A stretch of 49,972 nt of DNA from an uncultured Verrucomicrobiales bacterium (lineage in GTDB: Bacteria; Verrucomicrobiota; Verrucomicrobiia; Verrucomicrobiales; Akkermansiaceae), in NCBI GenBank assembly GCA_937128235.1, contig CAKZMG010000286.1, positions 1 through 49,972 on the forward strand. The letters run 5' to 3'. The number at the start of each line of letters is the position of its first letter. Within the stretch, counting starts at the first letter, position 1. The notes beneath the pieces were generated by a model that worked only from the letters and a program-made list of their open reading frames with translations, did not search any database and was not told the DNA's origin. Shown piece after piece: positions 2,962 through 39,212 of this stretch. The position numbers and the translations under genes are program-made.

Positions 2962-2990
2962 TTGACAGTGGTTAGCTCCCTGCGTATTGA
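2962..2990 (+). promoter_or_regulatory. Sigma-70-type promoter, TTGACA-N17-TATTGA
   Basis: A perfect -35 (TTGACA, 2962-2967), a 17-base spacer and a -10 (TATTGA, 2985-2990). Transcription would begin close to 2997, which is the A of the start codon of the TetR-type gene, so the mRNA would be leaderless or nearly so. Confidence 0.65.
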
Positions 2991-2996
2991 TTTACC

Positions 2997-3674
2997 ATGT
3001 CAGCAACAGCGAAAATTGAGCTACAAGATAAGTATTGGAAACATCTCTTAATAGAAGGTGAGCGGCCTAAAAGTGTCTTCGCTCTCATGGATTCTCTCCA
3101 GCGTGATGAGGCAGAATTTTATCAGAGCTTCGCGAGTCTGGATGCGATAGAAGCTCATTATTGGCAATCTACTGTGGATGGAACCATCGAGGTTTTAGAG
3201 GCAGATGCGGACTATGCTGAGTATCCTGCAGATCAGAAGCTGCTCGCATTTTTCTTCACCTACATCACTCATATTCAGAGTAATAGATCACGCTTCGTGG
3301 GGTATTTTCCGAAACCCGGTTTAAGCATGAGTGATCGTCTGAAAGGAATGAGTAACAGCTTCAAAGCTTACGCGAAAGACATCGTCACTGAGGGAGTAGA
3401 GCAGGGGATTTTTGCTGATCGGAAAAAAATGTTAGATTACTATGATCGTCTTATCTGGATGCATTTTTTAGCGGTTATTCATTTTTATATCAAAGACAGT
3501 AGTGAGGATTTTCAAGACACAGATGCCTTCATTGAGAAAAGTACACATTTTGGAATTCAATCTGCCGCACATGGGGTGTTAGAGTCTGGTTTTGATTTTG
3601 TTAGATTCTTAGCAGGGAAAGATGACAGGCTAAAAGGGCTGAGTAAAATGATCAGTAAATTTATACCAGAATAG
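2997..3674 (+). CDS. TetR-family regulator-like protein
   Basis: 225 residues. The N-terminal 60 residues have the TetR-type helix-turn-helix layout (SVFALMDSLQRDEAEFYQSF, then the turn into the next helix at AIEAHYW). The rest is all-helical and resembles the C-terminal ligand or dimer domain found in TetR-like proteins of Bacteroidota and verrucomicrobia that are encoded beside ABC1 kinases. Here too the next gene, only 3 bases downstream, encodes an ABC1/UbiB-type kinase, so the pair is conserved as a functional unit (family knowledge). The helix-turn-helix is divergent and DNA binding is not certain. A strong promoter ends 6 bases before the ATG. Confidence 0.75.
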   Translation: MSATAKIELQDKYWKHLLIEGERPKSVFALMDSLQRDEAEFYQSFASLDAIEAHYWQSTVDGTIEVLEADADYAEYPADQKLLAFFFTYITHIQSNRSRFVGYFPKPGLSMSDRLKGMSNSFKAYAKDIVTEGVEQGIFADRKKMLDYYDRLIWMHFLAVIHFYIKDSSEDFQDTDAFIEKSTHFGIQSAAHGVLESGFDFVRFLAGKDDRLKGLSKMISKFIPE

Positions 3675-3677
3675 AGC

Positions 3678-4994
3678 ATGAAAGAGCAAACATCCATCCC
3701 TAAGCACAAGCTAGGAAGAGCCGCTTCACTAGCAGGAGCGGGTATGAAAGTGGGAGTGAACTACCTCCGCTACAAAGGCACTAAAGCACTCACGGGAAGA
3801 GACGAGAAAGATAAATTTCACGAGCGAACCGCTGCGGACACCTACAAAACATTCAGTAAGCTGAAGGGTGGACCGTTGAAGTTAGCCCAAGTTCTCAGTA
3901 TGGATAAGAACCTTATTCCTGAGCAGTATTCTGATGAGTTCTCCAAGGCACAATATTCCGCACCACCACTTTCTTATCCACTTGTCGTGAGAACATTTCA
4001 GCGTGAAGTAGGTAAATCACCTACTGAAATGTTTGATACATTCACCACTAAAGCCTCTGCGGGAGCATCCATAGGGCAGGTGCATAAGGCGACTATTGGA
4101 GATGATACTTACGCGGTGAAAGTGCAGTATCCTGGAGTGGCGGATAGCCTTCATAGTGACCTAGCCATCGTGAAACCCATTGCGATGAAGCTTTTTAAAC
4201 TCGATGCCAAGTCCATAGATCCCTACATGCAGGAAGTAGAGACGAGGCTGATAGAAGAGACTGATTATAAATTAGAGCTAAAGCGTTCAGTCGATCTAGC
4301 GGAAAAATCTAGTGATTTGAATATCACGAAATTTCCTAAGTACTATCCAGAGTTCTCTAGCCAAAAAATTCTCACGATGGAGTGGATAGATGGTCTCCAA
4401 CTAGATGACTATGCAGCAAGTGATGCTTCTCAAGCTGAAAAAAACAAGATAGCTCAAGCTCTCTGGGACTTCTACGCGCACCAGATACATTCACTGAGAG
4501 TCTTCCACGCGGATCCGCATCCGGGAAATTTCATCGTGAAAGACGGTGAGCTTTGGGTGCTAGATTTTGGCTGTGTGAAGGAGGTGAGTGATGAGTTTTA
4601 CGAAGGCTACTTCCGCTTGATGGAGCCAGAAGTGTTTCAAAATAAAGAGAAACTAAAGCCTGCGTTGTATGATGTTAGTTTACTGTTAGAGGAAGATGAT
4701 GAGGCTACAGTCGAGAAATTGTTAGGGATTTTCCAAGAGTCCATTTCATTGCTCAATAAACCTTATCTAGCGGGAATTTATGACTTCGGGGATAATGGAT
4801 TTTTTGAGGAACTTGCCGCATTTGGTGAGCGCACTCGCACAGATAAAGAACTGCAAGCCATCAATTCAGCCCGTGGCAAGGCAGATGCACTTTATCTAAA
4901 TCGCACATTTTTCGGAGTCTATAATCTGATGGGAATGCTCAAGGCAGAGGTGAATACTTCAAAAGAAGTTGAACACAGAATGCATAAAATGTGA
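3678..4994 (+). CDS. ABC1/AarF/UbiB-family atypical protein kinase
   Basis: 438 residues. The protein-kinase-like fold of the UbiB/ADCK family is seen from the invariant lysine in YAVKVQYPGV (K148), the EETDY motif that follows, the catalytic HADPHPGN (near 276-283) and the metal-binding DFG (near 296). The family's KxGQ loop near residue 68 reads KLAQ here, a Gly-to-Ala change in the motif that normally blocks kinase activity and favours ATP hydrolysis. Members support isoprenoid-quinone or membrane-lipid metabolism. No transmembrane helices are obvious at the C-terminus. Three bases separate it from the TetR-like gene and 12 from cinA, so the three are co-transcribed. Confidence 0.92.
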   Translation: MKEQTSIPKHKLGRAASLAGAGMKVGVNYLRYKGTKALTGRDEKDKFHERTAADTYKTFSKLKGGPLKLAQVLSMDKNLIPEQYSDEFSKAQYSAPPLSYPLVVRTFQREVGKSPTEMFDTFTTKASAGASIGQVHKATIGDDTYAVKVQYPGVADSLHSDLAIVKPIAMKLFKLDAKSIDPYMQEVETRLIEETDYKLELKRSVDLAEKSSDLNITKFPKYYPEFSSQKILTMEWIDGLQLDDYAASDASQAEKNKIAQALWDFYAHQIHSLRVFHADPHPGNFIVKDGELWVLDFGCVKEVSDEFYEGYFRLMEPEVFQNKEKLKPALYDVSLLLEEDDEATVEKLLGIFQESISLLNKPYLAGIYDFGDNGFFEELAAFGERTRTDKELQAINSARGKADALYLNRTFFGVYNLMGMLKAEVNTSKEVEHRMHKM

Positions 4995-5006
4995 TAAGAC
5001 CTACGC

Positions 5007-6248
5007 ATGAGAATAGAGATTATTAATACGGGTTCTGAACTTCTGTTAGGGAGCACTATCAATACGCACGGTGCTTGGCTGGGGCAGGAGTTGTTAGGTC
5101 TTGGACTGCGCGTGCAGCGACTCGTCACTGTGCCAGATGGTGACCCCATCCGCGATGCGCTTAAGGAAAGCATAGCGGTCAGTGATGCGGTGATCGTCAC
5201 TGGTGGGCTGGGTCCTACGAGCGATGACGTGACGCGTGAAGCGACAGCTGAGGCGCTAGGAGTAGAGCTGATAGAAGACGAACACGCAGTGCGCTCTCTG
5301 GAAGCCTTTTTTGCAAAATTAGGCAGACCAATGACACCCTCTAATCTCAAGCAAGCTCAGCATCCAGTGGGAGCGGACGTGCTTCCAAATCCGAATGGAA
5401 CTGCTCCGGGAGTCTATGTTCCACCGCGTCTGGGAGACTCTGCCTGTGCTATCTTCCTACTCCCTGGTCCACCGCATGAAATGCACGCCATGTATCACGC
5501 AGAAGTAGCACCTCGGCTCAAGGCACTCACAGAAATGCCAGCTGATCACGGAGTCACTAACATTAAATTTTCTGGTGTGGGCGAGAGTTCCTTCCAAGAT
5601 ATGTTAGACGCTAAACTCCACGAAGCTGGCGGATTAGAAGTCGGCTACTGTGCCAGACCTGGTGAGCTGGACCTACGTCTCATTGGCTCCGAGTCTGATA
5701 GAAAAACTGCCGCTAATCTCGCCATAAAAACTTACCCCCAGTGCTACGTGAATGATGATGGAAGATCACTCGAAGCAACCGTAGTCCACGCTCTAACAGA
5801 AAAAAATCTCAAGCTCGCACTAGCAGAGAGCTGCACGGGTGGTAGAATTTCTAGCCGCATCACAGATGTCTCCGGCTCATCCGCTGTCTTCACGCACGGC
5901 TACGTCACCTACGCGAATGAGGCGAAGGTAGCGATGCTAGGAGTGAACGAGGCTAGCCTAGAAAAAGAGGGTGCCGTCAGCGAAAAGGTAGCGCAAGAAA
6001 TGGCTGAGGGTGCGCTTAGAAATTCAGGTGCAGACATCGCTCTTTCAGTCACCGGCATTGCGGGACCTACTGGAGGTACAGATGAAAAGCCTGTAGGCAC
6101 AGTCTGGATAGGGATTTCTGTTAGAAAAGGTGATCAAATCCTTACATCTGCTGAGATGAAATTTTATCCAAATGGCAGAGAAGTGTTCAAGCGGCTAGTG
6201 AGCCAAGCTGTGCTGATGAATATCTTGAGATCCACTAAAGAGGTTTAA
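5007..6248 (+). CDS. cinA: CinA-family nicotinamide mononucleotide deamidase / pyrophosphatase
   Basis: 413 residues, the normal length. The N-terminal molybdopterin-binding-like domain shows GSELLLGSTINTHG, VTGGLGPTSDDVTREA and LLPGPPHEM. The C-terminal CinA domain (from about residue 255) shows LAESCTGGRISSRITDVSG and VTGIAGPTGGTDEKPVGTVW, the signature of the NMN deamidase. The enzyme recycles NMN to nicotinate mononucleotide in pyridine nucleotide salvage; the N-terminal domain is linked to ADP-ribose hydrolysis. It is the last gene of the TetR/ABC1/cinA operon and overlaps the convergent phosphatase gene by 14 bases, leaving no room for a bidirectional terminator between them. Confidence 0.96.
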   Translation: MRIEIINTGSELLLGSTINTHGAWLGQELLGLGLRVQRLVTVPDGDPIRDALKESIAVSDAVIVTGGLGPTSDDVTREATAEALGVELIEDEHAVRSLEAFFAKLGRPMTPSNLKQAQHPVGADVLPNPNGTAPGVYVPPRLGDSACAIFLLPGPPHEMHAMYHAEVAPRLKALTEMPADHGVTNIKFSGVGESSFQDMLDAKLHEAGGLEVGYCARPGELDLRLIGSESDRKTAANLAIKTYPQCYVNDDGRSLEATVVHALTEKNLKLALAESCTGGRISSRITDVSGSSAVFTHGYVTYANEAKVAMLGVNEASLEKEGAVSEKVAQEMAEGALRNSGADIALSVTGIAGPTGGTDEKPVGTVWIGISVRKGDQILTSAEMKFYPNGREVFKRLVSQAVLMNILRSTKEV

Positions 6249-7794
6249 CCGTAACCACTTTTTTATCTAAGAAATACTCTGCCAGAGCATCCCGAGTAGA
6301 TGTGTTCAGCATGGTTTTCTTCGCTGTTTTAGCTTGTCCTATTTTCCTGAGTGCCATCATTTTTTGACCGCCAGATTGCAAGTCATAACTGTTGAACATC
6401 ACTGTGATTCGCTGATCTAGTAATAGCAATTTCTCTCCCTTTTTGATCGCGACATATGTTTTGCCTTCTCTTACAGCGGTGAGTCCTAGCAGCTCTCTAT
6501 CAGACATTCTCGATAGCGCGGCTTCATTCATTACGGTCAGCATGTCTGCAACTGTCAGTTCGCATCTAGCTAGCATATTATCATACGGAATGAGCTTCCA
6601 CAGATCTCCCATGGTCACTTTTCCAGCCTTGAGCGTCCCTCCAAATGTTCCGTGGAAAATGGCATCTACTTTGATCTTTTGTTTCGCCGCGAGGTGATTA
6701 AACGCAGCAGCAAATAGCGGTAAGGTATTTTTGTTAGGTCCCTTCGCTTCAATATCTACCATGAGCTCTCCCACTTCTTTCTCAGTGTATTTAGTCGCAG
6801 TGTCCAAGTATGGCTGGGTATGCTGTAGCACAATGGGATCAAGCTCGAAACGATCATCCATCAGGTTACTCACGATGCGTTTCTTAAGAAGCTTACGAGA
6901 TTCTCTATCAAATGTGAGGTCCACTCTGCCGCATTGTATCCCATGATAACCAGCCTGAGTACAGATTACACCACCTACTTTAAAGTAAGACATATCCATA
7001 TGTGAATGCCCTCCGATGTAGAAATCCACTCCGCGCACCTTGCCTAAAATTTGATCCAGCGGGTTCGCGTAGTCGTATCTGAATTTGAAGCCCATGTGAC
7101 CTGTCACGATGATCGCATCAGCCTTCATCGCCTGTAGTTCATTGACGCTATTTTGCAAGCATTCCACCGGGTCTAGTGGCTTTACGCCCTTGAGTAAATC
7201 CGGGCTTAGCCAGTAGGGGAGGCCAGGAGTGACCAGCCCTACGATGCCTATTTTAAATCCATCCACCTCCTTCAGCATGAATGGAGCCACACGCTTCGCC
7301 AGCGGGTGATCTGCATTTCCCCATGCTCCAGGCTTTCGTCCTTTGTATTCGATGTTGGCAGTGAGGATAGGCATTTCAGAAAGATTCGCAGCCTCTTCCA
7401 CGGCCTCCAGCCCCCAGTCAAATTCATGATTCCCCAGCGTCCAAGAATCATAGCCAAGTTTGTTGATCAGCTCCACCATCACCTTGCCATTGCAAAGCTG
7501 GCTCACAGGCGTGCCTTGGTAGAGGTCTCCTACATCGACTAAAATGTTAGAAGGATTCATGTTTTGCCATGCGCGGATTTGCGTAGCGCATCTCGCTAAT
7601 CCACCGAGGCTCGTGTTCCCATCATAATCACTACTAGGGAGGATGTGACCATGCAGATCAGTGGTGTGAATAATTGAAATAGTTTTCACAGATGACCGCT
7701 GCACCGCAGCCTCCAGTGGGTCAAGCGGCATCGCTAATACTCCAGCCGCTGCTCCAGTCATCGTCTTAATTGCATTTCTTCTAGTATGATTCAT
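6235..7794 (-). CDS. Exported 5'-nucleotidase / cyclic-nucleotide phosphodiesterase-type metallophosphatase
   Basis: 519 residues. The N-terminus MNHTRRNAIK with a following small-residue stretch is a Tat-type export signal (twin Arg). The calcineurin-like metal-binding motifs are all present: TDLHGH, DVGDLYQG, GNHEFDWG, VTGHMG and GGHSHMD. A C-terminal 5'-nucleotidase domain covers about residues 330-500, with the substrate-stacking region around YDNMLARCE. The reaction is release of phosphate from nucleotides or UDP-sugars in the periplasm; exact specificity is not visible. Its 5' end and upstream DNA recur as a decayed copy at 40444-40600 (see repeats), so this gene was once part of a duplicated divergent module. 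Confidence 0.93.
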   Translation of the reverse strand: MNHTRRNAIKTMTGAAAGVLAMPLDPLEAAVQRSSVKTISIIHTTDLHGHILPSSDYDGNTSLGGLARCATQIRAWQNMNPSNILVDVGDLYQGTPVSQLCNGKVMVELINKLGYDSWTLGNHEFDWGLEAVEEAANLSEMPILTANIEYKGRKPGAWGNADHPLAKRVAPFMLKEVDGFKIGIVGLVTPGLPYWLSPDLLKGVKPLDPVECLQNSVNELQAMKADAIIVTGHMGFKFRYDYANPLDQILGKVRGVDFYIGGHSHMDMSYFKVGGVICTQAGYHGIQCGRVDLTFDRESRKLLKKRIVSNLMDDRFELDPIVLQHTQPYLDTATKYTEKEVGELMVDIEAKGPNKNTLPLFAAAFNHLAAKQKIKVDAIFHGTFGGTLKAGKVTMGDLWKLIPYDNMLARCELTVADMLTVMNEAALSRMSDRELLGLTAVREGKTYVAIKKGEKLLLLDQRITVMFNSYDLQSGGQKMMALRKIGQAKTAKKTMLNTSTRDALAEYFLDKKVVTVKPL

Positions 7795-7860
7795 CTAAAC
7801 AAAAGACACCTAATATCAACCGATTACAAGCGAAAAGATAAACCAATAGCGGATATTAAC
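7740..7860. repeat. Copy A of a duplicated divergent promoter module
   Basis: This stretch covers the first ~18 codons of the phosphatase gene (minus strand) and the DNA between it and the next plus-strand start. It matches the block at 40462-40580 closely, for example ATTGCATTTCTTCTAGTATG at both places and TAATATCA followed by GATTACA. The part from GATTACAAGC (7822) to ATATTA also matches 39550-39586. In all three copies GATTACA starts 77-78 bases before a plus-strand ATG that begins Met-Lys-Arg. Confidence 0.8.
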
Positions 7861-7898
7861 GTAAATGGAATCAACGTTATCTTGTTTCATCTCACAAC

Positions 7899-7994: not shown

Positions 7995-7999
7995 CTGCC

Positions 8000-9607: not shown

Positions 9608-9623
9608 CCTAGATAACAACCTG

Positions 9624-12661: not shown

Positions 12662-12667
12662 TATAAT
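12662..12667 (+). promoter_or_regulatory. Candidate -10 element (TATAAT) for rpoD
   Basis: A perfect TATAAT 46 bases before the chosen rpoD start; no convincing -35 lies 16-18 bases upstream. A TTGACG at 12602 is too far to pair with it. The 255-base gap from 12459 to 12713 shows nothing else beyond AT-rich sequence. Confidence 0.4.
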
Positions 12668-12713
12668 GGTAGAATTGTCTCTACGTCTAAACATCATCTC
12701 TAAAATCATTCTT

Positions 12714-14717
12714 ATGGCAGCAAAAAAATCGGCTAAAAAAACAGCCAAAAAAACGACTAGCAAGAAGGTAGCCAAAAAGGCGCCTGCAAAAAAAGCAGCC
12801 AAGAAAGCAGCAAAAAAAGCGGTCAAGAAGGTTGCCAAAAAAGCAGTAAAAAAAGCGGCTCCTAAAAAAGTTGCAAAGAAGGTGGCAAAGAAAGCGGCGA
12901 AAAAAACTCCTAAAAAAGTTGCAAAAAAAGCAGTAAAAAAAGCGGCTCCTAAAAAAGCAGCTAAGGTTGCTAAGAAAGCCGCGAAAAAAGCCGCACCAGC
13001 TAAGGCAACTAAGAAAAAGCCAGCCAAGAAACTTTCCAAACTAGAAGCCCTACTTGCTAAAGAGGCTGAGGAAAAAGCACAACGTGCTAGCAAAAAGAAA
13101 GCTCCTAAGAACCGCATCGACACTCCAGAAATGCAGGAGAAAGTGCGTGAGCTCATCAAGCTCGCTAAGGAACAAGACTACCTCACTTACGATGACATCA
13201 ACGAGATTCTACCGAATGACATGGTGGAGCCATCAGATGTGGAGGCCATCCTTGAGCGTCTTCGCTCTATGGAGTTTGACATCATCGATGCCTCAGAAGT
13301 GGATCGTTACCGCACCAACAAAAAAGAAGGCGTCGATGCCAACACGACCAAAACTGAGCAGAAGCTAGACATCCTAGATGATCCAGTCCGCATGTATCTC
13401 AAGCAGATGGGTCAGGTTCCACTCCTCACACGTGAGCAAGAAGTTGAAATTTCTAAGCGTATCGAGGATGCTGAACTCACTGTGCAGAAGCATCTTCACC
13501 GCTTTGGATTTGTTTCTCAATCATACCTCGATCTCGCTGATAGCTTGATGAAAGGTAAGGAGAGATTTGACCGAGTGATACTGGACAAGAAGATCGAGAG
13601 CCGTGAGCGCTACATGAAAATGCTCCCTAAACTCTGTGACCAACTACGCCAGTGCCACGAGGACACAGACCTCATTTTCCGTAAACTGCACGCCAAGACA
13701 CCTCGCGGCAAACTCAAACTAGAAGCTGAACTCGAAAAGCAACTCGCGTCTATCGCTAAAATTTATGGACGTTTCTATTACAAGCAAAAAGTTGTAGAGG
13801 ACTTCTGTGAAGTAGTGGAAGACTACCAGAAAAAGTTCTGGAAGTTTAACCGCAAGCTCACTGCCAACCCGAAGGATAAAGAATTTGAAACTAAGCTCCG
13901 CGAAGCTCAGCAGATCTCTTGGCACACCGCAGATAATTTCAACGCAAATAATAAAGATCTACGCAACTGGATCAAAAAAGCTTACGGAGCTAAGACTGAA
14001 ATGGTCGAGGCTAACCTCAGACTCGTTATCTCCATCGCTAAGAAATACACCAACCGTGGACTCTCATTCCTAGACCTCATTCAGGAAGGAAATATGGGTC
14101 TCATGAAGGCTGTGGAGAAGTTTGAATACCGCCGTGGTTATAAATTCTCAACTTACGCAACATGGTGGATTCGCCAGGCGATCACCCGCTCTATCGCGGA
14201 TCAGGCAAGAACGATCCGTATTCCAGTGCACATGATCGAGACCATTAACAAGCTCATGCGCGTGCAAAAGCAACTCGTCCAAGAGTATGGACGTGAGCCT
14301 ACTCCAGACGAGATCGCAGACGAGATTCACCTACCTGTAGAGCGTGTCCGTGCGGTTCTCAAGATGGCTCAGCAGCCAATCTCACTCCAGGCACCAGTCG
14401 GTGACTCAGATGACACCTCATTCGGTGACTTCATCGAGGATAAGGCAGCTGACAACCCGATGGAAGAAGCTGGATTCGCGATGCTTAAAGAAAAAATCGT
14501 TGATGTGCTAGACACTCTAACAGAACGCGAGCGCGAAGTGTTAGAGCAGCGTTTCGGACTCAAGGACGGCTACAGCAGAACGCTGGAAGAAGTGGGACGT
14601 CAGTTCCAAGTCACCCGTGAGCGTATCCGCCAGATCGAGGCCAAGGCACTCCGTAAGATGCGCCACCCGACCCGTATTAGAAAGCTCGAAGGCTTCATCG
14701 AGCTACCGAATATGTAA
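12714..14717 (+). CDS. rpoD: Housekeeping RNA polymerase sigma factor RpoD with Lys/Ala-rich N-terminal extension
   Basis: 667 residues from the ATG at 12714. The first ~110 residues are almost entirely Lys, Ala, Pro and Thr in KKAAKK/KKAVKK-type repeats, like the tails of bacterial histone-H1-like proteins. Then follow sigma region 1.1 ([18 protein letters not shown]), 1.2 ([21 protein letters not shown]), a long non-conserved insert, region 2 with the -10-reading helix ([19 protein letters not shown]), region 3 ([20 protein letters not shown]) and region 4 ([20 protein letters not shown]). This is the primary sigma factor. In-frame codons reach back to 12666, but the Lys-rich tail starts at MAAKKS and the TATAAT lies just upstream, so 12714 is preferred. 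A strong terminator follows. Confidence 0.96.
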
Positions 14718-14731
14718 TTATTCTTTCAACC

Positions 14732-16071: not shown

Positions 16072-16100
16072 TTGCCCTCGAAAACTTTGCTCTCTAGCAT
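16072..16100 (+). promoter_or_regulatory. Promoter TTGCCC-N17-TAGCAT
   Basis: -35 TTGCCC (16072-16077), 17 bases, -10 TAGCAT (16095-16100). The predicted start of transcription (~16107) is 3 bases before the GTG at 16110, which supports that GTG as the start of a near-leaderless gene. Confidence 0.45.
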
Positions 16101-16109
16101 TTCACCACA

Positions 16110-16403
16110 GTGGCAGCAGATCAACCATTCATGAGCAAGTGGCTCACTCGATTACGTAAGGACTTACTTCGCAGTGGCAGCCTTACCGAATTGTCTCTGC
16201 ATCTGGAGAAGCACTCATCACCTAAGTTCAGCTCGGATGAATGGAAGCTATCCATCCGCTCTATTCTTAATGAGGAACAAAAGCCAGATAGCGACTTCGT
16301 CCTCGCGGTGGATCAATGGATCAGCCAGCGGAACCAAACATCTATTAAAAAATCATCCGCTGAGAAATCCCTCTCTAGCGATAATCAGCTAGATCTCTTA
16401 TAG
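16110..16403 (+). CDS. Small hydrophilic protein of unknown function
   Basis: 97 residues, GTG start; an ATG at 16131 would give 90. It is charged and probably helical, with FMSKWLTRLRKDLLRSGSLTELSLHLEKH followed by a segment with DEWKLSIRSILNEEQKPDSDFVLAVDQWI. No signal or membrane segment and no motif I recognise. The last 29 bases overlap the 3' end of the convergent glycosyltransferase gene. Its own promoter just upstream and the ordered composition argue for a real gene, not a chance frame. Confidence 0.6.
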   Translation: MAADQPFMSKWLTRLRKDLLRSGSLTELSLHLEKHSSPKFSSDEWKLSIRSILNEEQKPDSDFVLAVDQWISQRNQTSIKKSSAEKSLSSDNQLDLL

Positions 16404-19591: not shown

Positions 19592-21073
19592 CTACCAGCG
19601 GAAATTCTTTCCACCTTTGAAGTTTTCATTCTTAGTAGGCAACACCGCCTTAGTCTCCTCCATGTATTTTTCTAGGATTGTTAGCAGCTCCTGAGTCTTC
19701 GCTTTCTCAGTCATCGCGAGGTCATTTTTCTCGGATGGATCCTCCTTCAGATTGTAAAGCTCCACTCCCTTTTTATAGTAAAATTTGATCAGCTTCCAGT
19801 CTCCCACTCTAACAGCCGAGCTAGGAATCCCACCCTGATTTCCCCAGTGTGGGTAATGCCAGAACAGCGCTCTATCAGTCTGTGGAGTCTTCATTTGCGC
19901 GATGACACTCTTCCCATCGAGGTGATCCTTAGGCTGAACATTTTTCCCACAAGCCTCCAGAATTGTTGGGAAGAAGTCTGTGCTGGTGACTAACATTTCT
20001 GAACTCGTTCCCGGCTTCGTTACTCCAGGTACACGCAGTATCATCGGCTCTCTGATGCCGCCCTCATACATCCAGCCCTTACCAGCTCGCAGAGGAAAAT
20101 TAGACGTTGGTGAGCCTTCGGAAGTAGAGAGTCCACCATTATCTGAGAAGAAAATAATGATCGTGTCATCGTATTTACCAGAATCCTTCAAGCCTTGTAT
20201 TACCTTGCCCACAGCCTCATCCATCGCCTCTACCATCGCGCCATAAATAACATGGTTCTGCTTCGCTCTGACCTTTCTTGGGAACTCAGGTTGAAAAATT
20301 TTATTCTTCTTCAGGTTCAGATCTTTTGCCTTTTTCTTATATTTTTTTACCAAATCCTCTCTCCCTATCAGCGGAGTATGCACTGAGTAAAATGAGAGTA
20401 GCGCAAAGAACGGCTTATCCGTAGAGTTCATAAATTTAACCGTCTCCGTAGCCAGCCTATCTGGCAAATGCTCACCATCCGTACCATCCTTGAGGTAAGG
20501 ATTTCCATACGGTGAAAAATATTTTTTCCCACCATAAGGACCACCGCGATGAAAGCCTCCCTTATTAATATCAAATCCATGATCAGTCGGCAGCGAACCC
20601 TCACCACCAAGATGCCACTTTCCGGCAAAGAACGTTGCGTAACCATGTTTCTTCAGCGCCTCAGGCAGTGTCGTCAGAGCGGCTGGTAATCTGTCAATGT
20701 AGTGCGCCGGCACTAATGGCTTCTTCCATTTCTTAGGCACAGGCTTTCCAGGCTTGGGATTAAACGCTCCGAAGTAATCTGTGTTTTTCGTGCGAGCAGG
20801 ATACCGCCCAGTCATGAGCGATGACCTAGTCGGCGAGCACACCGGACACGCCGCGTAGGCATTGGTAAATTTTACTCCATCCTTAGCCAGAGCATCCAGG
20901 TGAGGAGTCTCATAAAAGCTAGAACCGAAGCATCCCAGATCCGTGTAACCCAGATCATCCGCAAAAATAAATAACACATTTTTCTCCTTAGCTTCCTGAC
21001 CAGAACTAACAGCAACACTCAGTGCACAGCTGAAAACCAACCCAAGAGAAAAAGACAGTTTTTTTAATTTCAT
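19592..21073 (-). CDS. Exported type I sulfatase
   Basis: 493 residues with a signal peptide (LSFSLGLVFSCALSVAVSSG). Metal-ligand motif ADDLG (D39, D40) and the formylglycine site CSPTR (C79) are intact, as are the FFSDNGG metal motif and the C-terminal KEDPSEKNDLA region. Such enzymes need a formylglycine-generating enzyme to oxidise the Cys; that gene is not in the window. The substrate is probably a sulfated polysaccharide (family knowledge; not visible from sequence). It shares strand and family with the sulfatase at 22018 but is separated from it by the rhomboid gene and a palindromic repeat. Confidence 0.95.
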   Translation of the reverse strand: MKLKKLSFSLGLVFSCALSVAVSSGQEAKEKNVLFIFADDLGYTDLGCFGSSFYETPHLDALAKDGVKFTNAYAACPVCSPTRSSLMTGRYPARTKNTDYFGAFNPKPGKPVPKKWKKPLVPAHYIDRLPAALTTLPEALKKHGYATFFAGKWHLGGEGSLPTDHGFDINKGGFHRGGPYGGKKYFSPYGNPYLKDGTDGEHLPDRLATETVKFMNSTDKPFFALLSFYSVHTPLIGREDLVKKYKKKAKDLNLKKNKIFQPEFPRKVRAKQNHVIYGAMVEAMDEAVGKVIQGLKDSGKYDDTIIIFFSDNGGLSTSEGSPTSNFPLRAGKGWMYEGGIREPMILRVPGVTKPGTSSEMLVTSTDFFPTILEACGKNVQPKDHLDGKSVIAQMKTPQTDRALFWHYPHWGNQGGIPSSAVRVGDWKLIKFYYKKGVELYNLKEDPSEKNDLAMTEKAKTQELLTILEKYMEETKAVLPTKNENFKGGKNFRW

Positions 21074-21152
21074 TTCTAAATTTTATCAGCACCCCACCTC
21101 AAATCAAGACGCTATATCTGAAGGGTGTAATTTTTTACCCTGTTTCTAGTAG

Positions 21153-25267: not shown

Positions 25268-25324
25268 ATTAATGATGTTTTACCGATTGACTTGCATTAC
25301 CGCCTGACCGATTCTTCTTGCATC

Positions 25325-26285: not shown

Positions 26286-26314
26286 TTGCATCTCACCCAG
26301 AATGTGTATATAAT
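26286..26314 (+). promoter_or_regulatory. Promoter TTGCAT-N17-TATAAT
   Basis: -35 TTGCAT (26286-26291), 17 bases, perfect -10 TATAAT (26309-26314). Predicted transcription start ~26321, leaving about 12 bases before the ATG at 26333 and no Shine-Dalgarno-like sequence. Confidence 0.65.
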
Positions 26315-26332: not shown

Positions 26333-27346
26333 ATGACGACATTATTGATTGCAGCCTTCTTGGTGATTTTCATTTCAGCATTATGCTCAGGCACTGAGGC
26401 AGCATTATTTTCTACCCCCATCATGAAGATACGCCAGATGGCGGATGAGGAAAATAAGCCCAAACGAGGAACTAAAGCACTGCTCGCCATCCGTGAGAAG
26501 ATGAGCCGCCCTATCTCGATGATTGTCATCTTGAACAACATTGCCAACATCGGTGGCACCACGATCGTTACCTTACTGGCTAAAGAGATCTTTGATAGTT
26601 GGATAGTGGCTGCTATTTCTGGATCACTGACCTTCCTTGTCATTATCTTTGCAGAAATTATACCTAAGACGATCGGAGAAAAACACAATCTGAAAATAGC
26701 GCTCTTCATGGCGAAGCCTGTGCTGTTTCTGACAAAAATATTCACCCCGCTCATCTGGCTTGTAGAGTTCTTGACCAGCCCATTTACAGGCAAGGATAAG
26801 CAGGTCCTCAGCACAGACGAACGCGAGATCCGCTACATGGCTCAGCTTGGTGAGGAGGAAGGAGTCATCGAGGCAGACGAGCTAGAAATGCTCCACGGTG
26901 TGTTCCAGCTCAATGATATGGATGCAAGAGCACTGATGACGCCGCGCATCTCGCTCACCTGCATAGAGGGTGAAGCAGCTATCGAGTCCGTGATTGATGA
27001 GGTCATAGAGTCTCAGCATAGCCGCATCGTAGTCATCGGGGAATCCAGAGATGACGTGGTAGGTGTGGTGCTGAAATCCAGCCTACTCATTGCCATGATC
27101 AAGGGACAAGGTGCGGACAAAGTGAGGATGCACGGCTACGTACCAGTAGAGGTTTTACACTGCAATAAAGCAGATGACATCCTGCCTATCTTCCAGAAAA
27201 GCAGGCAGCACTTAGCCATTGTTAGAGATGAGTTCGGTGGCGTGGATGGAGTCGTCACCCTAGAAGACATCATCGAGGAACTTACAGGAGAAATCGTAGA
27301 TGAGACCGACACAGACGAAGACATGCGCGAGGCGGCTGTGAGCTAG
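26333..27346 (+). CDS. CNNM/CorC-type transporter with CBS pair
   Basis: 337 residues. The N-terminal DUF21/CNNM membrane domain has four hydrophobic helices (LLIAAFLVIFISALCSGTEAALFS and so on; a conserved GTEAA). A tandem CBS domain pair follows (ALMTPRISLTCIEGE, FGGVDGVVTLEDIIEEL at ~200-325). The usual C-terminal CorC_HlyC domain of about 80 residues is missing; the gene ends soon after the second CBS with EIVDETDTDEDM. Family members move or sense Mg2+/Co2+ or Na+. The TPR protein gene starts 10 bases downstream, probably in the same transcript. Confidence 0.9.
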   Translation: MTTLLIAAFLVIFISALCSGTEAALFSTPIMKIRQMADEENKPKRGTKALLAIREKMSRPISMIVILNNIANIGGTTIVTLLAKEIFDSWIVAAISGSLTFLVIIFAEIIPKTIGEKHNLKIALFMAKPVLFLTKIFTPLIWLVEFLTSPFTGKDKQVLSTDEREIRYMAQLGEEEGVIEADELEMLHGVFQLNDMDARALMTPRISLTCIEGEAAIESVIDEVIESQHSRIVVIGESRDDVVGVVLKSSLLIAMIKGQGADKVRMHGYVPVEVLHCNKADDILPIFQKSRQHLAIVRDEFGGVDGVVTLEDIIEELTGEIVDETDTDEDMREAAVS

Positions 27347-29021: not shown

Positions 29022-29022
29022 T

Positions 29023-31155: not shown

Positions 31156-31226
31156 AAAATTAACGTAGCATGTTCCATAAAACATTCAAGATGATTAACA
31201 TCAGTAACCTTAGTAATAATAGGTCA

Positions 31227-32054: not shown

Positions 32055-32233
32055 TTCATCTATGGCGGTGAGTGCCAGTTATGAAAACGAACTTAGTAAG
32101 AGTTTCGATTTATTCAACAAGGAACGTGATTAATTGTATGTCAGTTGAGCACTTGCCTTCACATTCTTTTCTGCTAACTAGTCACCGATTTTTTCATTGG
32201 AAGAAACTCAATAATTTCTATATACTATTTTTA

Positions 32234-32896
32234 ATGACGCGCATCTCAGCCATTTCAGCATATGGATCTATTGGTAAGTTAACCATTTTCCTACTATTTT
32301 CGCTGATCTCAAAAGCGGATCAGATCCGCGTGGAGCTGGCTGATGGGTTTGATTTCCCAGTGGGGAAGCCTAATGCGTATAAATATTACAAAGCCCGCGG
32401 GATGCGCTTGCGTAGTCCGGTGCATTTTGGCGAGGACTGGAATGGCACGGGCGGCGGAAATAGCGACCTGCATGATCCCATTTATGCCTGTGCGAATGGT
32501 GTGGTGACATTTGCCTATGATGTCAGAGGCGGCTGGGGACGGGTGATCATTCTCAGACATGCTTACCGAGATCCTAAGACTGGGAAAATAAAATACGTGG
32601 ACTCTCTCTACGGCCATAATCGAAAGATGCTAGTAAAAAAAGGTGACTACGTGACCCGCGGTCAGCAGATCGCTACGATGGGGAATAACCGTGGAATGTA
32701 TCCTGCACACTTGCATTTCGAGATTCGCCATAACATTAAGGTGGGAATGTACCGCACCAGCGTGAGTAAATCACTCACCAACTGGGCAGATCCGACGGCA
32801 TTTATCAAGAAGCACAGGAAGCTGAAAAAGGAGTGGCGTAAACAAGCGGTGCCTACCGGAACATACAAGGTTTACAAAGGCTTCTCTGGACTGTAG
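32234..32896 (+). CDS. M23/LytM-type metallopeptidase, exported
   Basis: 220 residues from the ATG at 32234 (an upstream ATG at 32072 gives an unlikely N-terminus). Signal peptide SIGKLTIFLLFSLISKA. The LytM domain has the zinc ligands in HFGEDW and HLHFEIR and a GG-containing core (VVTFAYDVRGGWGRVIILRH; KGDYVTRGQQIATMG). Members cut peptidoglycan cross-bridges or act as activators of amidases. The ligand pair H-x3-D and H-x-H is intact, so an active enzyme is likely. Next gene 17 bases downstream. Confidence 0.88.
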   Translation: MTRISAISAYGSIGKLTIFLLFSLISKADQIRVELADGFDFPVGKPNAYKYYKARGMRLRSPVHFGEDWNGTGGGNSDLHDPIYACANGVVTFAYDVRGGWGRVIILRHAYRDPKTGKIKYVDSLYGHNRKMLVKKGDYVTRGQQIATMGNNRGMYPAHLHFEIRHNIKVGMYRTSVSKSLTNWADPTAFIKKHRKLKKEWRKQAVPTGTYKVYKGFSGL

Positions 32897-32913
32897 AAGG
32901 CACTCATAATTTT

Positions 32914-33612: not shown

Positions 33613-33628
33613 TTTTAACAATTTTATT

Positions 33629-34399
33629 ATGCTAGCGAAAAGAATTATCCCCTGCCTCGATGTGACCAATGGCAGAGTGGTGAAAGGGACGAATTTTGTG
33701 GATCTGGTCGATGCGGGAGATCCAGTTGAGAGCGCGATTGCTTATAATGAGCAGGAAGCGGATGAGCTAGTATTTCTGGACATCACTGCCTCAAGTGACG
33801 GCAGAGAAACGATGGTGGATGTGGTGCGACGTACAGCCGAGAAATGCTTCATCCCGCTCACAGTCGGAGGTGGTATTCGCACGGTGGAGGACATGCGCAA
33901 GATGCTCCTAGCAGGTGCAGATAAAGTAGGAATGAACACCGCGGCGGTAGTGAATCCTTCAGTGATAGATGCTGGGGCGAAAGCGTTCGGTGATCAGTGC
34001 ATCGTGGTAGCTATCGATGCCAAGCGTGATGAAAATGGCAAATGGGGAGTCTTTACTCATGGTGGCAGAAAGCCCGTAGGACTGGATGCCGTGGAGTGGG
34101 CTAGAGAAGTTTACAACAGAGGTGCCGGAGAAATTTTACTAACAAGCATGGATGCAGATGGCACTAAGGATGGCTACGACATTGAGCTAACAGCAGCCGT
34201 GAGCGAGGCAGTAGGTATCCCTGTCATCGCCAGTGGAGGTGCTGGAAATCTTCAACACATGGTGGATGTCCTAGAACAAGGAAAAGCGGATGCAGTTTTG
34301 GCTGCCAGTATTTTCCATTTCGGTCAACATTCTGTGCGAGAAGCGAAAGAGTATTTTGCCGAAAAAGGCATACCAGTCCGCCCAATGTTTACTCATTAA
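33629..34399 (+). CDS. hisF: Imidazole glycerol phosphate synthase, cyclase subunit
   Basis: 256 residues, typical length. (beta/alpha)8 barrel with the HisF hallmarks: [18 protein letters not shown] (catalytic D11), [37 protein letters not shown] (catalytic Asp), [20 protein letters not shown] and [15 protein letters not shown]. With HisH it makes imidazole glycerol phosphate and AICAR in histidine synthesis. No other his gene lies in the window, so the pathway genes are dispersed. Confidence 0.97.
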
Positions 34400-34433
34400 C
34401 ATCCATAAGGAATTGATGTATTTGATAAAAGCA

Positions 34434-34461
34434 TTGATTTTCTGAAAACTGACTAAATAAT
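34434..34461 (+). promoter_or_regulatory. Promoter TTGATT-N16-AATAAT
   Basis: -35 TTGATT (34434-34439), 16 bases, -10 AATAAT (34456-34461). Transcription should start about 6 bases before the ATG at 34474, leaving almost no leader. Confidence 0.45.
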
Positions 34462-34473
34462 CACTCCATTCAT

Positions 34474-35601
34474 ATGGCTGAAGAACAAAGACATTTATAC
34501 CACTGCGACTGCTGTGGAGAGTTGTTTAAATCAAAACAACGTGCGATAGAAGACATCAAATGTGGATCATGCGGTGAGCATCCCGTGAAACCAAAATTTG
34601 CGGCAGTATCAGAAATGCCCGCCCTCGATAAACACGACAAGAAAAGCAAACATGGCGTTCCAGGCATGGATGAAGCGGATCTCTTCTCAATGAAGAAGAA
34701 GCAACAACGCAAAAACTGGACCATCATCTGTCTCATGTGGGTGGTAGGTCTTGCGGTAATCGCATTGATGGCAAACAGAATGAACAATAAGGCTAAGGCA
34801 GCTGCCATCGCTGACGTTGAATTAGATGATGCAGATAAAGCCTATGTTATTAGAAAAAATGACGCTTATCAAAAGTGTAAGTCACGCTTCGTAAGATTTG
34901 CCAGAGTGTCCGTTGTTCAATCTAAATCATCACATATTCTCAACGGTAGTGAACTGGTTCTAGACATTAATCGCTACTACCGAGGGAACTTGATGAGAAA
35001 TGATCTCGCTTCTTCAGAAATCATCAAATTTGACCTCATTGAATCGGGGGATCAGCCAAAAGCTGCCGCGCTTTTCCGCTACACACAAAGAGCTACCCAA
35101 ACAGCCAAACCATATGATTTTGAAGTTCTTTTCTGGAAAAAAGGTGATGACTGGTTTATTGACTGGCCTCATTTCGTAAGGCTTGGAGAGGTTAACTGGT
35201 TCAGATTTTGTGAGGATAAAAAGAAAAACTCACCGAAACGATTCAAACTCTATGCAAGAGAGAGGAGTGCCAATTCGCTCGATTTAAGCGGATACGATGA
35301 ATACAAACTTTCCGAAGCCTACAACAACAGTGTTCTGCCTAGTCAGCTATCGATATCCGTTTTTGTCAAACATCAGACGAAGCTCAAGACACAGCTTACC
35401 AATAAATTTAAAGAGCTACGTGAGCGCAGAGAGAAAAAAATAGTAACCGAAGAGGTTATAGGTTCCTTTGACCGTCCCAAAAATAGATTGCTCAGGCTCG
35501 ATGTCACCGTTGATTTCGAGGAAATCGAAGGTGAAACTCAACTAGTGCTCAAGGAAATTCACGGCTTCAACTGGGAAACCCCACCTGCGAAAGAGAACTA
35601 G
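34474..35601 (+). CDS. Zinc-ribbon membrane protein of unknown function
   Basis: 375 residues. Residues 9-35 hold a zinc ribbon (Cys at 11, 14, 30 and 33; CDCCGELF and CGSCGEHP). A basic Lys-rich segment follows, then one membrane helix (WTIICLMWVVGLAVIALMA, ~76-96). The C-terminal ~270 residues should face the periplasm and show an alpha/beta layout with YDFEVLFWKKGDDWFIDW. A cytoplasmic zinc ribbon joined to an outside domain is a common verrucomicrobial pattern. I do not recognise the outer domain. It converges with aroE over a short hairpin. Confidence 0.7.
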   Translation: MAEEQRHLYHCDCCGELFKSKQRAIEDIKCGSCGEHPVKPKFAAVSEMPALDKHDKKSKHGVPGMDEADLFSMKKKQQRKNWTIICLMWVVGLAVIALMANRMNNKAKAAAIADVELDDADKAYVIRKNDAYQKCKSRFVRFARVSVVQSKSSHILNGSELVLDINRYYRGNLMRNDLASSEIIKFDLIESGDQPKAAALFRYTQRATQTAKPYDFEVLFWKKGDDWFIDWPHFVRLGEVNWFRFCEDKKKNSPKRFKLYARERSANSLDLSGYDEYKLSEAYNNSVLPSQLSISVFVKHQTKLKTQLTNKFKELRERREKKIVTEEVIGSFDRPKNRLLRLDVTVDFEEIEGETQLVLKEIHGFNWETPPAKEN

Positions 35602-35624
35602 TGCATTTTAAATAAAAACGCACT
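35600..35624. terminator. Possible bidirectional terminator hairpin
   Basis: AGTGCATTTT pairs with AAAACGCACT around a short AT loop and covers both stop codons of the convergent genes. T-rich on both strands. The stem is short, so confidence is modest. Confidence 0.4.
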
Positions 35625-36510
35625 AAGAGATAGCCTCTCTCATTAGCTTGGTATCAGGTGCTACACCTGTCCATATTTCAAATGAAATCGCACCCTGGTG
35701 AACTAACATCGACAAGCCATTAGAGATAGCCGCACCGCGATCACTAGCTGACTCTAACAGCTTAGTGCATGGTGGACTATAAATCGCATCATACACTTTG
35801 TGTTTAGATGTTATTGACTCCACTGGAAATGGCAATTCATCCTCAGGCTTCATGCCCTGGGATGTCGCATTGATAATAATATCCACGTCATCGGCGATCA
35901 TTTTTAAGTCAGAAACACTATTACCCAGTGCCTTCAACCTAGTCTGATCTGATGCAGTATTTTCAATAAATTTCTCCACCAGTAACTCCGCCTTGCTGAC
36001 CGTTCTGTTAGATAAATATAATCTAGCGCAACCTTCACTATTTAGCTGCGTGGCAATCGCTTTTCCAGCTCCGCCACCTGCACCTAGAACGAGCACCCGT
36101 GCTCCCTTTACTCTGAGTTTTAGGTCCTCCTCAAGCGCCTTGACCAGACCTGGGCCATCTGAGTTATCACCCATGATCTTGCCTTCATGAAAATGGATCG
36201 TGTTCGCCACTCCGAGTAACCTCACTGAGTCAGATAAAGTATCACAGCACTCCATCGCCTCCAGCTTATGGGGGATAGTCACGTTACAGCCAATAAACCC
36301 TAATTTCTGCATCAGAGAAAATGACTCAGCCACACTACCCGGCTCTATTTCTAACCGAATATAAGTCACATCCAGACCCAGCGCATCCAGCGCAGCTTGG
36401 TGCATTTCTGGTGAGGCAGAATGAGCGACTGGATAGCCTAGAACTGCCAACTTCGCATTCTCAGGCAGCGATCTATCTCGCAGATCATCGATGGTATAAA
36501 CGTGCTTCAT
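35623..36510 (-). CDS. aroE: Shikimate dehydrogenase
   Basis: 295 residues. Shikimate-binding N-domain: AVLGYPVAHSASPEMHQAAL (Ser-x-Ser site) and NVTIPHKLEAME (catalytic Lys). Nicotinamide-binding domain: VLGAGGGAGKAIATQL and NRTVSKAELL, then NATSQGMKPED and GLSMLVHQGAISFEIWTG. It reduces 3-dehydroshikimate with NADPH in aromatic amino acid synthesis. Its start overlaps the gltX stop by four bases (ATGA), so the pair is one operon with coupled translation. Confidence 0.96.
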   Translation of the reverse strand: MKHVYTIDDLRDRSLPENAKLAVLGYPVAHSASPEMHQAALDALGLDVTYIRLEIEPGSVAESFSLMQKLGFIGCNVTIPHKLEAMECCDTLSDSVRLLGVANTIHFHEGKIMGDNSDGPGLVKALEEDLKLRVKGARVLVLGAGGGAGKAIATQLNSEGCARLYLSNRTVSKAELLVEKFIENTASDQTRLKALGNSVSDLKMIADDVDIIINATSQGMKPEDELPFPVESITSKHKVYDAIYSPPCTKLLESASDRGAAISNGLSMLVHQGAISFEIWTGVAPDTKLMREAIS

Positions 36511-37829
36511 GATAGCTCACTCACCGCTCTACGCACTCTGCGGACAGACTCCTCTTGTCCCAGTATTTCTAAAATTTCACCTAGATCAGGTCCGCCACCC
36601 ATCCCGCTCAATGCAACTCGTGTTGGGAACATTAGCTGACCGGGCTTAGCTCCATTTTCCTTAGCGGTAGCTCCGATGATTCCCTTCGCCTCAGACCAAT
36701 CTGTTAGACTAGAAAACGCCTCCGCTAATTTTTCTAACAACTCGCCAGCCTGAGCATTATTTTTCACCTTCTCCATCACCTCAGTATCAAACGGATAATC
36801 TGCATTGGTATAGAAAGAAATCATCTTAGGAACTTTAGTAAGCAGATCCACCTTCTCTTGCACCGATGCCGCTATCCTTTCATAGCTCCCATCCACAGGC
36901 ACGCCAGCCGCTTCCACATACGGAGCTGCTGCTGTCGCAAATTCCTGCCCACTAAGCTTCAGCAAATGCTGCTGATTCACCCAGGCACATTTTTTCTCAT
37001 CATACTTAGCTCCTGAGCGGTTCACAGCGGACAAATCAAACTTTTCCACCAATTCCTGCAGAGCAAAAATCTCCTCATCATCCTTAGGCGACCACCCTAA
37101 CAGGGCGATGTAATTATTCACCGCATCAGAAATAAATCCGTCCTCTTTATAACCATCAACACGCGCCCCAATATCACGCTTAGACATCTTAGAGCCATCC
37201 TTATTTAAGATCAGCGGAATGTGAGCAAACTTCGGCGGCTCCACACCAAATGCCTCAAATAACTGCAAATGCTTCGGAGTATTCATCAAGTGGTCTTCAC
37301 CACGGATCACATGCGTCATCCCCATCTCAATGTCATCCACCACATTCACAAAGTGGAACACAAACGTCCCATCAGAACGCCTCACCACCATGTCCGGATT
37401 ATTCGCCTTTCCAGTCTTAGGATTCACCGCCTGATCATTGTAATCGATCGTTACATCACCACAGACCAAGTCATGGACGGTGACCGCCTTACGCTCAAAT
37501 CTAAATTTCCAAGCCCCCTCATCCTCATACACGCGATCTGCCGCTACCAGCTTATCAAACCACTTCTCATAAATCGCCTGCCGCTGAGACTGATACACTG
37601 GCTCCTCATCAAAATCCATCCCCAGCCACTCCAAGCCACCAAAAATAGCCGCCCTAGCCTCCTCCGTATTCCGCGCCTCATCCGTATCCTCCACACGGAG
37701 AAAAAACTTACCCCCATGCTTGCGCGCAAACAGCCAGTTAAACAACGCAGTCCTCGCACCCCCAGTATGCAGATAACCAGTGGGCGATGGAGCGAAACGT
37801 GTACGGACAGATTTTTCAGAATGACTCAT
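36507..37829 (-). CDS. gltX: Glutamyl-tRNA synthetase
   Basis: 440 residues, slightly shorter than the usual ~470-500. Class I motifs are intact: FAPSPTGYLHTGGARTALFN (HIGH equivalent) and KDGSKMSKRDIG (KMSKS equivalent), plus RVEDTDEARN and HVIRGEDHLMNTPKHLQLFEA. Charges tRNA(Glu), and probably tRNA(Gln) as well, since gatB is present (non-discriminating form; inference). One of the over-represented DNA words (GGTAAGTTTT) falls in the codons for GGKFF. Upstream of aroE with a four-base overlap. Confidence 0.97.
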   Translation of the reverse strand: MSHSEKSVRTRFAPSPTGYLHTGGARTALFNWLFARKHGGKFFLRVEDTDEARNTEEARAAIFGGLEWLGMDFDEEPVYQSQRQAIYEKWFDKLVAADRVYEDEGAWKFRFERKAVTVHDLVCGDVTIDYNDQAVNPKTGKANNPDMVVRRSDGTFVFHFVNVVDDIEMGMTHVIRGEDHLMNTPKHLQLFEAFGVEPPKFAHIPLILNKDGSKMSKRDIGARVDGYKEDGFISDAVNNYIALLGWSPKDDEEIFALQELVEKFDLSAVNRSGAKYDEKKCAWVNQQHLLKLSGQEFATAAAPYVEAAGVPVDGSYERIAASVQEKVDLLTKVPKMISFYTNADYPFDTEVMEKVKNNAQAGELLEKLAEAFSSLTDWSEAKGIIGATAKENGAKPGQLMFPTRVALSGMGGGPDLGEILEILGQEESVRRVRRAVSELS

Positions 37830-37879
37830 GCCGCAAAGTCAATCTCACCACCTGTAAAAAGCAACGCGAAATTTAACTT

Positions 37880-37907
37880 TTTACACCCTCTCCCATATCT
37901 GTAGGAT
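37880..37907 (+). promoter_or_regulatory. Promoter TTTACA-N16-TAGGAT
   Basis: -35 TTTACA (37880-37885), 16 bases, -10 TAGGAT (37902-37907). The expected start of transcription is at or next to the ATG at 37914, so the mRNA would be leaderless. Confidence 0.5.
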
Positions 37908-37913
37908 GCCAGC

Positions 37914-39212
37914 ATGAAGAAAATAGCAGCCCATTGGCAAATCATCATCGCCCTCATAGCCGCAGTCATCATCGGCTCGCTACTCAAGAAATTCGATGAC
38001 GCACCATGGCTCCAATCCTTCCTCAAAATATGCGATCTTCTCGGTGACCTCTTCCTCCAGGCACTCAAAATGATCATCGTCCCACTCGTCGTCTCCTCCA
38101 TCATCGCCGGCCTAGCAAGCCTCGCCGGATTCGATGGCTTCAAGCGCATGGGTCTAAAAACCCTAGGCTTCTACCTCCTCACCACCCTCAGCGCAGTCGT
38201 CCTAGGGCTACTCATTGTCAACACCATCCAGCCCGGACTCAAAGACGGAAAGCCAAATGCAGAGCTCCGCCAAGTCTTCGATGAAGCACCCGCCCAAGCT
38301 GATGACTCCGCCAAGGAAAAATTTGCCCCAGACCGCCAAGCCAAAGCCAAAGACTGGACCGCTATCTTCAAGCGTATGCTCCCCTCAAACATCATCAAAG
38401 CCGGAGCAGAAGGTCAGCTGTTAGGTCTCCTCGTCTTCTCCCTCATGTTCGGCATCGCCATGACCCAGTTCCCGCCAGACCAGATGCAGCCCATGCGAGA
38501 TTTTTTCCAAACACTCAATGACGTGATGATCCGCATCACCCAGTGGATCATGGTTTGTGCACCACTCGGTATCTTCGGCATGATCACAGTCACCGTTTAC
38601 AAAAGCGGCGCAGAAGTCTTTCAGCAGCTTGCTCCCTACTTCTTCACCGTCCTCATCGCCCTCGCCCTCCACATGTTCCTCGTCCTTCCACTACTCTTAA
38701 AATTAGTAGCAGGCATTAATCCCATCAACCATTTCAAGGCGATGAAAACCGCACTCCTCACCGCCTTTTCCACCTCCAGCTCCTCCGCCACCCTCCCCGT
38801 CACCATGCGCTGCGTGCAGGACAATGCCGGCGTCAGCAAGAAAACCGCCAGCTTCACACTCCCACTCGGAGCCACCGTAAACATGGATGGCACCGCACTC
38901 TACGAATGCATCGCCGTCATCTTCGTCGCCCAGGTCATGGGACTAGAAATGGCTTTCGCCGCCCAGATGCTAGTTGTCATCTCTGCCCTACTCACCAGCA
39001 TCGGAGTAGCCGGAGTTCCCTCTGCCTCCATGGTCGCCATCCTCATCATCATGAACAACTCCGGCATCCCCGGAGCAGACAACGCCATCCTCGCACTCTT
39101 CGCAGTGGACCGCCTCCTAGACATGTCCCGCACCGCAGTAAACGTCTTCGGAGACTCCTGCGCAGCCGTAGTCATCGCCAAATCAGAAGGAGAAACTCTT
39201 TATCAGGAATAG
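37914..39212 (+). CDS. Dicarboxylate/amino acid:cation symporter (DAACS family)
   Basis: 432 residues, mostly membrane. The GltPh/GltP marks are all present: the re-entrant loop SSSSATLPVTMRC, the NMDGT motif in GATVNMDGTALYECIAVIF, and the second hairpin with the substrate-binding stretch DRLLDMSRTAVNVFGDSCAAVV (Asp, Arg, Asn). It couples uptake of glutamate, aspartate or C4-dicarboxylates to Na+ or H+. An insert of about 50 residues near residue 110-155, rich in charged residues, lies outside the membrane. The exact substrate is not readable. Confidence 0.94.
   Translation: MKKIAAHWQIIIALIAAVIIGSLLKKFDDAPWLQSFLKICDLLGDLFLQALKMIIVPLVVSSIIAGLASLAGFDGFKRMGLKTLGFYLLTTLSAVVLGLLIVNTIQPGLKDGKPNAELRQVFDEAPAQADDSAKEKFAPDRQAKAKDWTAIFKRMLPSNIIKAGAEGQLLGLLVFSLMFGIAMTQFPPDQMQPMRDFFQTLNDVMIRITQWIMVCAPLGIFGMITVTVYKSGAEVFQQLAPYFFTVLIALALHMFLVLPLLLKLVAGINPINHFKAMKTALLTAFSTSSSSATLPVTMRCVQDNAGVSKKTASFTLPLGATVNMDGTALYECIAVIFVAQVMGLEMAFAAQMLVVISALLTSIGVAGVPSASMVAILIIMNNSGIPGADNAILALFAVDRLLDMSRTAVNVFGDSCAAVVIAKSEGETLYQE

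Follow-up and report, generated by a model that had tools for sequence, protein, structure and literature searches.

In the genome of a Rubritalea-like verrucomicrobium, roughly one in four of the ATG-start genes at the head of a transcription unit probably has a −10 box about 6 nt before the ATG and is predicted to be leaderless; we put the probability of this reading at about 0.87. The window analyzed here (49,972 bases) is an entire contig, C286, of that genome, a 3.86-Mb metagenome-assembled genome of 347 contigs (G000). The original prediction had named five promoters in the window that lie so close to a start codon that leaderless messenger RNAs (mRNAs) seemed likely.

Across 40 of the window's 50 kb, sigma-70-like sites were not above shuffled sequence (26 versus 23.3, and 24 versus 29.8), and we therefore used positional tests in place of consensus counts. 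The genome sample comprised 798,863 bases of G000, namely the window and 79 further pieces, in which 520 genes were called with a home-made open reading frame (ORF) caller. Since this caller takes only codon bias and the start codon as inputs, upstream motifs had no influence on the called starts. A gene was considered unit-heading if its same-strand neighbor lay at least 60 nt off or its opposite-strand neighbor at least 40 nt off. Among 461 classable genes, 282 were unit-heading; 238 of these start with ATG, and the 44 that start with GTG or TTG were excluded from the main counts. As a control we used 200 kb of E. coli (57 unit-heading ATG genes), and as a positive control 250 kb of plasmid 2 of Deinococcus deserti, a species known for leaderless mRNAs. 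Upstream regions were scored with a mixture model that allows zero or one promoter per region, a spacer of 15–19, a gap of 0–50 and a position-specific background; its matrices were fixed, with preset base frequencies. The gap is the number of nucleotides between the end of the −10 box and the start codon, and the predicted leader is the gap minus a discriminator of 6 nt, the classical length. Freely learned position weight matrices, in which the weight for no promoter dropped to 0.00–0.01, were not used for claims.

Both promoter boxes peaked at fixed distances from the start codon. Upstream of the 238 genes, TTGACA-like boxes (at most one mismatch) occurred 25 times at −36 to −34, compared with 5 in the median 3-nt bin and 11 in the runner-up bin (−60 to −58). 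The 57 E. coli genes had one such box at −36 to −34 and showed a Shine-Dalgarno (SD) peak instead. TANNNT was found 34 times at −15 to −13 and 37 times at −12 to −10 (median 17.5). The mixture weight at gap 4–9 was 0.256 (bootstrap 0.205–0.344), compared with 0.026 ± 0.010 in shuffles, 0.068 in operon and mid-unit genes (n = 152) and 0.037 in E. coli. The sharpest gap was 6, which alone carried a weight of 0.159. Excluding the window left 0.237 (216 genes), and four alternative start tolerances gave 0.213–0.279; the 44 GTG- or TTG-start genes reached 0.149. Across the sample, −10 boxes ending some 6 nt ahead of the start codon were more frequent than expected by chance.

SD motifs were scarce in the same genes. 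We measured these as a count of SD tetramers at −20 to −5, compared with the mean of other 16-nt windows, which is not an energy measure. Tetramers preceded 18 of the 238 unit-heading ATG genes of G000 (26.9 in other windows), 5 of 127 in Rubritalea profundi (15.3) and 11 of 132 in the relative G006 (17.4), with corresponding values of 36/57 (4.7) in E. coli and 36/75 (10.1) on the D. deserti plasmid. The remaining genes gave 24/152 (31.9), 8/68 (11.8) and 11/88 (15.7) in G000, R. profundi and G006, and 36/51 (4.7) and 24/42 (6.4) in E. coli and D. deserti. Only 4 of the 53 predicted leaderless genes of G000 carried a tetramer, the gene at 37914 among them. A search for 16S rRNA, made to locate the anti-SD sequence, gave no match in G000 or in five of the six relatives searched; in G023, an order-level relative, the anti-SD search gave GGATCACCTCCTTT.

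These observations suggest a mechanism. Because the −10 box of a sigma-70-type promoter ends about 6 nt ahead of the start codon, RNA polymerase would begin at the A of the ATG and produce an mRNA with no 5′ leader. The 5′-terminal AUG would then be used for initiation without SD pairing. The positions of the boxes and the scarcity of SD motifs are observed; the actual RNA 5′ ends, and ribosomes starting on them, we infer.

We then compared the named sites with the model. All five hexamer pairs are present in the window (Table 1), with consensus scores of 8–9 out of 12. Their predicted leaders are 0, 3, 12, 6 and 0 nt; the original prediction placed transcription starts 0–12 bases from the start codon and called leaderless transcripts likely. 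If leaderless means a leader under 8 nt, as in an excerpt of PMC10783764, four of the five sites fall within the definition by predicted leader; the gene at 26333, whose predicted leader exceeds it, would be short-leadered instead. That no SD sequence is seen holds by eye at four genes but not at 37914, where AGGA lies 7 nt ahead of the ATG, at 37903–37906, within the −10 hexamer itself. The model backed 2997 and 37914 (posteriors at gap 4–9 of 0.93 and 0.98), but not 26333 (0.00, although its gap-18 site is supported) or 34474 (0.02; its gap lies outside the bin and a different site scores best, p = 0.16). The gene at 16110 is missing from the called genes and has no model score. The earlier list covered the plus strand only, and the model adds four candidates, one of them on the minus strand.

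Within the window, the 27 unit-heading genes called, which do not include 16110, formed a test set of their own. A pair scoring at least 8 at gap 4–18 preceded 11 of the 27 (shuffles 6.4 ± 2.8, shifted windows 7.8), and a pair scoring at least 9 at gap 5–8 preceded 4 (shuffles 0.4 ± 0.6). The five-site list is by itself suggestive rather than proof. Its broader message, that leaderless translation is common here, is borne out at the level of sequence by the weight that the genome sample retains at the leaderless gap without the window, as compared with shuffles, operon genes and E. coli. The interpretation offered originally is thus supported as largely right, on a computational basis that concerns where transcription is predicted to start. 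A search of the whole window against Rfam at gathering thresholds gave no match.

Table 1 Putative promoters in the window and the genes they precede.
Feature	Coordinates	Strand	Details
Promoter TTGACA-N17-TATTGA	2962..2990	+	gap 6 to ATG 2997; predicted leader 0 nt
Gene, TetR_C_23 domain, predicted leaderless mRNA	2997..3674	+	
Promoter TTGCCC-N17-TAGCAT	16072..16100	+	gap 9 to GTG 16110; predicted leader ~3 nt
97-aa gene, function unassigned, conserved GTG start	16110..16403	+	no Pfam match
Candidate promoter TTGATT-N16-TAAAAT	21080..21107	-	gap 6 to ATG 21073 (sulfatase); posterior 0.95
Candidate promoter TTGACT-N17-GATTCT	25287..25315	+	gap 9 to ATG 25325; posterior 0.69
Promoter TTGCAT-N17-TATAAT	26286..26314	+	gap 18 to ATG 26333; predicted leader ~12 nt
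CNNM/CBS membrane protein gene	26333..27346	+	
Candidate promoter TTGGAA-N18-TATACT	32197..32226	+	gap 7 to ATG 32234 (Peptidase_M23); posterior 0.90
Promoter TTGATT-N16-AATAAT	34434..34461	+	gap 12 to ATG 34474; predicted leader ~6 nt
Hypothetical protein gene	34474..35601	+	no Pfam match
Promoter TTTACA-N16-TAGGAT	37880..37907	+	gap 6 to ATG 37914; predicted leader 0 nt
Sodium:dicarboxylate symporter gene	37914..39212	+	
Candidate promoter TTGGTG-N16-TAGACT	46148..46175	+	gap 6 to ATG 46182 (PDDEXK_3 protein); posterior 0.93

Orthologs of the gene at 2997 show the promoter and the start codon moving together. We found 17 loci and examined 13, leaving out two fragments and two distant loci. 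A TTGA or TTGC core lies 33–36 nt before an ATG in eight of the 13 (G000, G001, G005, G009, G002, G011, G006 and G004), even though that ATG is anywhere from 27 to 69 nt ahead of shared YW codons, a shift of up to 42 nt. Two additional ATGs at the G001 locus do not fit; in G016 the core precedes one of two ATGs by 34 nt; and G007, G010, G023 and G026 show no fit. For 21073, five other loci were found, one of them a fragment, and four were examined. The G005 ortholog has TTGATT-N17-TATGGT at gap 6, while its ATG lies 90 rather than 111 nt before the shared codons, that is, 21 nt downstream. Such joint displacement of promoter and start codon, at 2997 and at 21073 in G005, is what leaderless initiation predicts. 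Just upstream of the 2997 promoter we also noted an inverted repeat, TTTCAG-N6-CTGAAA (2936–2953), kept in G001, G005, G009 and G011. It is likely an operator, and the TetR_C_23 protein that 2997 encodes may be the one that binds it.

The other named sites are preserved to varying degrees. The GTG of 16110 stands in the identical place in all five tabulated loci, one of them a paralog in G000, and G005 has TTGCCC-N17-TATAAT there at gap 10; at a sixth locus, that of G017, there is no start at that place. At 37914 the −10 hexamer reads TAACAT in the close relatives G008 and G009 and TAAGCT in G005, with the gap kept; G002 retains TAGGAT at gap 7, and G007 has TTGACC-N18-CATACT at gap 5. The boxes of 26333 could be aligned by eye in G005 and G008, of seven loci tabulated. 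On a broader scale, TTGACA-N17-TANNNT-N4-8-ATG matched 104 times in 39 of 58 whole genomes, versus 40 matches for the pattern written backwards and 38, in 19 genomes, with the ATG 20 nt further away (N24–28), several of the latter being the same promoters. The whole G000 genome had 8 matches, versus 0 with the more distant ATG and 1 backwards. Among the 58 genomes, G013 (same family, 2.4 Mb) had the most such promoters, 20 at the leaderless and 12 at the longer spacing.

Several results weigh against leaderless initiation on this scale. Conservation is incomplete: the layout at 21073 is kept in one of the four relatives examined, the closest one, whereas G006, G004 and G009 lack a score-8 pair at gap 4–18; the gap-4–9 pair at 32234, although predicted by the model, is kept in none of eight relatives; the boxes and gap of 34474 recur in three of six tabulated loci (G000, G005 and G008; 11 found); and TTTACA-N16-TA stands at gap 6–7 before 37914 in five of 12 (26 found). 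The gap 4–9 weight in relatives is lower, at 0.113 (0.070–0.225) in R. profundi, where shuffles gave 0.042 ± 0.013 and gap 28–33 reached 0.101; 0.079 (0.037–0.166; shuffles 0.038 ± 0.016) in G006, weaker than in G000; and 0.131 (0.050–0.248; 34 genes, without a shuffle control) in G005, below its next two bins (0.165 and 0.139). In G000 itself, TANNNT had further bumps of 32 at −42 to −40 and 32 at −6 to −4, the latter also seen in operon genes, and the excess of pyrimidines at −1 in predicted leaderless genes (42 of 53 versus 77 of 117) was not significant (Fisher p = 0.10). The starts were, moreover, set by a home-made caller. Finally, the two-box model gave the D. deserti positive control a weight of only 0.065 (0.041–0.164). 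This value is low because the D. deserti signal consists of the −10 alone: TANNNT occurred 10 times at −12 to −10 (median 2) and not once there in operon genes.

How else might these patterns arise? The promoters could be real but start transcription a few bases off, giving leaders of 3–12 nt on which initiation depends on an A/U-rich unstructured context or protein S1 and not on a 5′-terminal AUG. Short leaders fit the gaps of 26333, 34474 and 16110 and the smaller weights at gap 9 (0.044) and gap 14 (0.027), and the scarcity of SD motifs is not confined to unit-heading genes. We nevertheless consider this account unlikely, since the single-base peak at gap 6 is the very distance that predicts a start at the A of the ATG, and a box at −34 to −37 precedes 30 of 238 ATG starts but 1 of 29 GTG and 0 of 15 TTG starts, although these numbers are small.

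It is far less probable that AT-rich upstream DNA has produced the sites by chance. The comparison with shuffles across 40 kb of the window agrees with that idea, and matches of 8 out of 12 near starts are frequent by chance, but the positional peak is absent from shuffles and E. coli, is weak in operon genes and survives removal of the window, and some sites are kept in relatives. Equally improbable are mis-called starts, with genes truly beginning downstream behind ordinary leaders. The home-made caller and an ATG 21 nt downstream of the 16110 GTG leave room for such errors; against them, the signal persists under altered start rules, N-terminal alignments of 37914, 34474 and 26333 with several relatives begin at residue 1, and the 16110 GTG holds its place across the tabulated loci. 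Leaderless initiation from a −10 box about 6 nt before the ATG thus remains the reading that we favor.

The values for the relatives raise a further possibility, which we advance tentatively and with somewhat less than even confidence: that the leaderless share varies two- to three-fold within a single SD-scarce genus, falling as G+C rises, and that start codons track the promoter where the N-terminus changes. Share and G+C were 0.26 and 0.44 in G000, 0.13 and 0.45 in G005, 0.11 and 0.46 in R. profundi, and 0.08 and 0.53 in G006; by bootstrap interval, G005 and R. profundi overlap with G000, and G006 does not.

The window holds other features of note. A sigma-70 factor with regions 1.1 to 4 (12666–14717) bears an N-terminal extension, some 100 residues long and rich in Lys and Ala (78% K+A across residues 17–117), and its true start may be a second ATG, at 12714. 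A DUF3686/DUF7902 protein (46836–49970) is truncated by the contig end. On the minus strand, an ORF that by eye resembles a serine/threonine kinase lies beside one that looks like a sigma-like regulator (3–803 and 843–1568); the second of the pair had no Pfam match at 1e-5.

Leaderless initiation is best known from Actinobacteria, Deinococcus and archaea. Of the 953 bacterial genomes covered by PMC3160421, 207 are reported to have leaderless genes, and Verrucomicrobia appear neither among its phyla with leaderless genes (section 7) nor in its main text; the passages of PMC5397173 consulted do not contain "Verrucomicrobi". Pairing leaderless with Verrucomicrobi, Akkermansia or Rubritalea in a literature search yielded no title on leaderless genes of Rubritalea among the matches listed. 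The closest known case is Akkermansia muciniphila, also of the Verrucomicrobiota and the order Verrucomicrobiales (NCBI taxonomy places Rubritalea in Rubritaleaceae and Akkermansia in Akkermansiaceae). According to excerpts of PMC4782308, Cappable-seq found transcripts there that begin at annotated start codons; such leaderless sites made up 10% of all start sites (886 positions of high confidence), compared with 0.4% in E. coli; Akkermansia is also counted as SD-scarce in the excerpt of PMC10783764. That 10% was measured on RNA, whereas our value of about 0.26 is sequence-based and refers to ATG-start unit-heading genes, so that with different denominators the two cannot be ranked directly. 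As in leaderless genes of Deinococcus-Thermus and Actinobacteria (excerpts of PMC3160421 and PMC12340547), the −10 box adjoins the start codon; the pattern described there is TANNNT (PMC3160421), and G000 has in addition a positioned TTGACA-like −35. SD motifs are widely used on the D. deserti plasmid but scarce in every gene class counted in G000.

Leaderless genes are therefore a known bacterial habit, already measured in Akkermansia; what appears to be new is their predicted frequency in a Rubritalea-like genome, which would widen their range in Verrucomicrobiota beyond the published Akkermansia data. In genomes of this kind, start finders that expect an SD motif or a leader may set starts in the wrong place. 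The relatives of G000 provide a set for tracing leader loss gene by gene, and if the leaderless share does vary within the genus as the present values suggest, the genus would offer a natural experiment on the loss or regain of leaders once SD pairing stops mattering.

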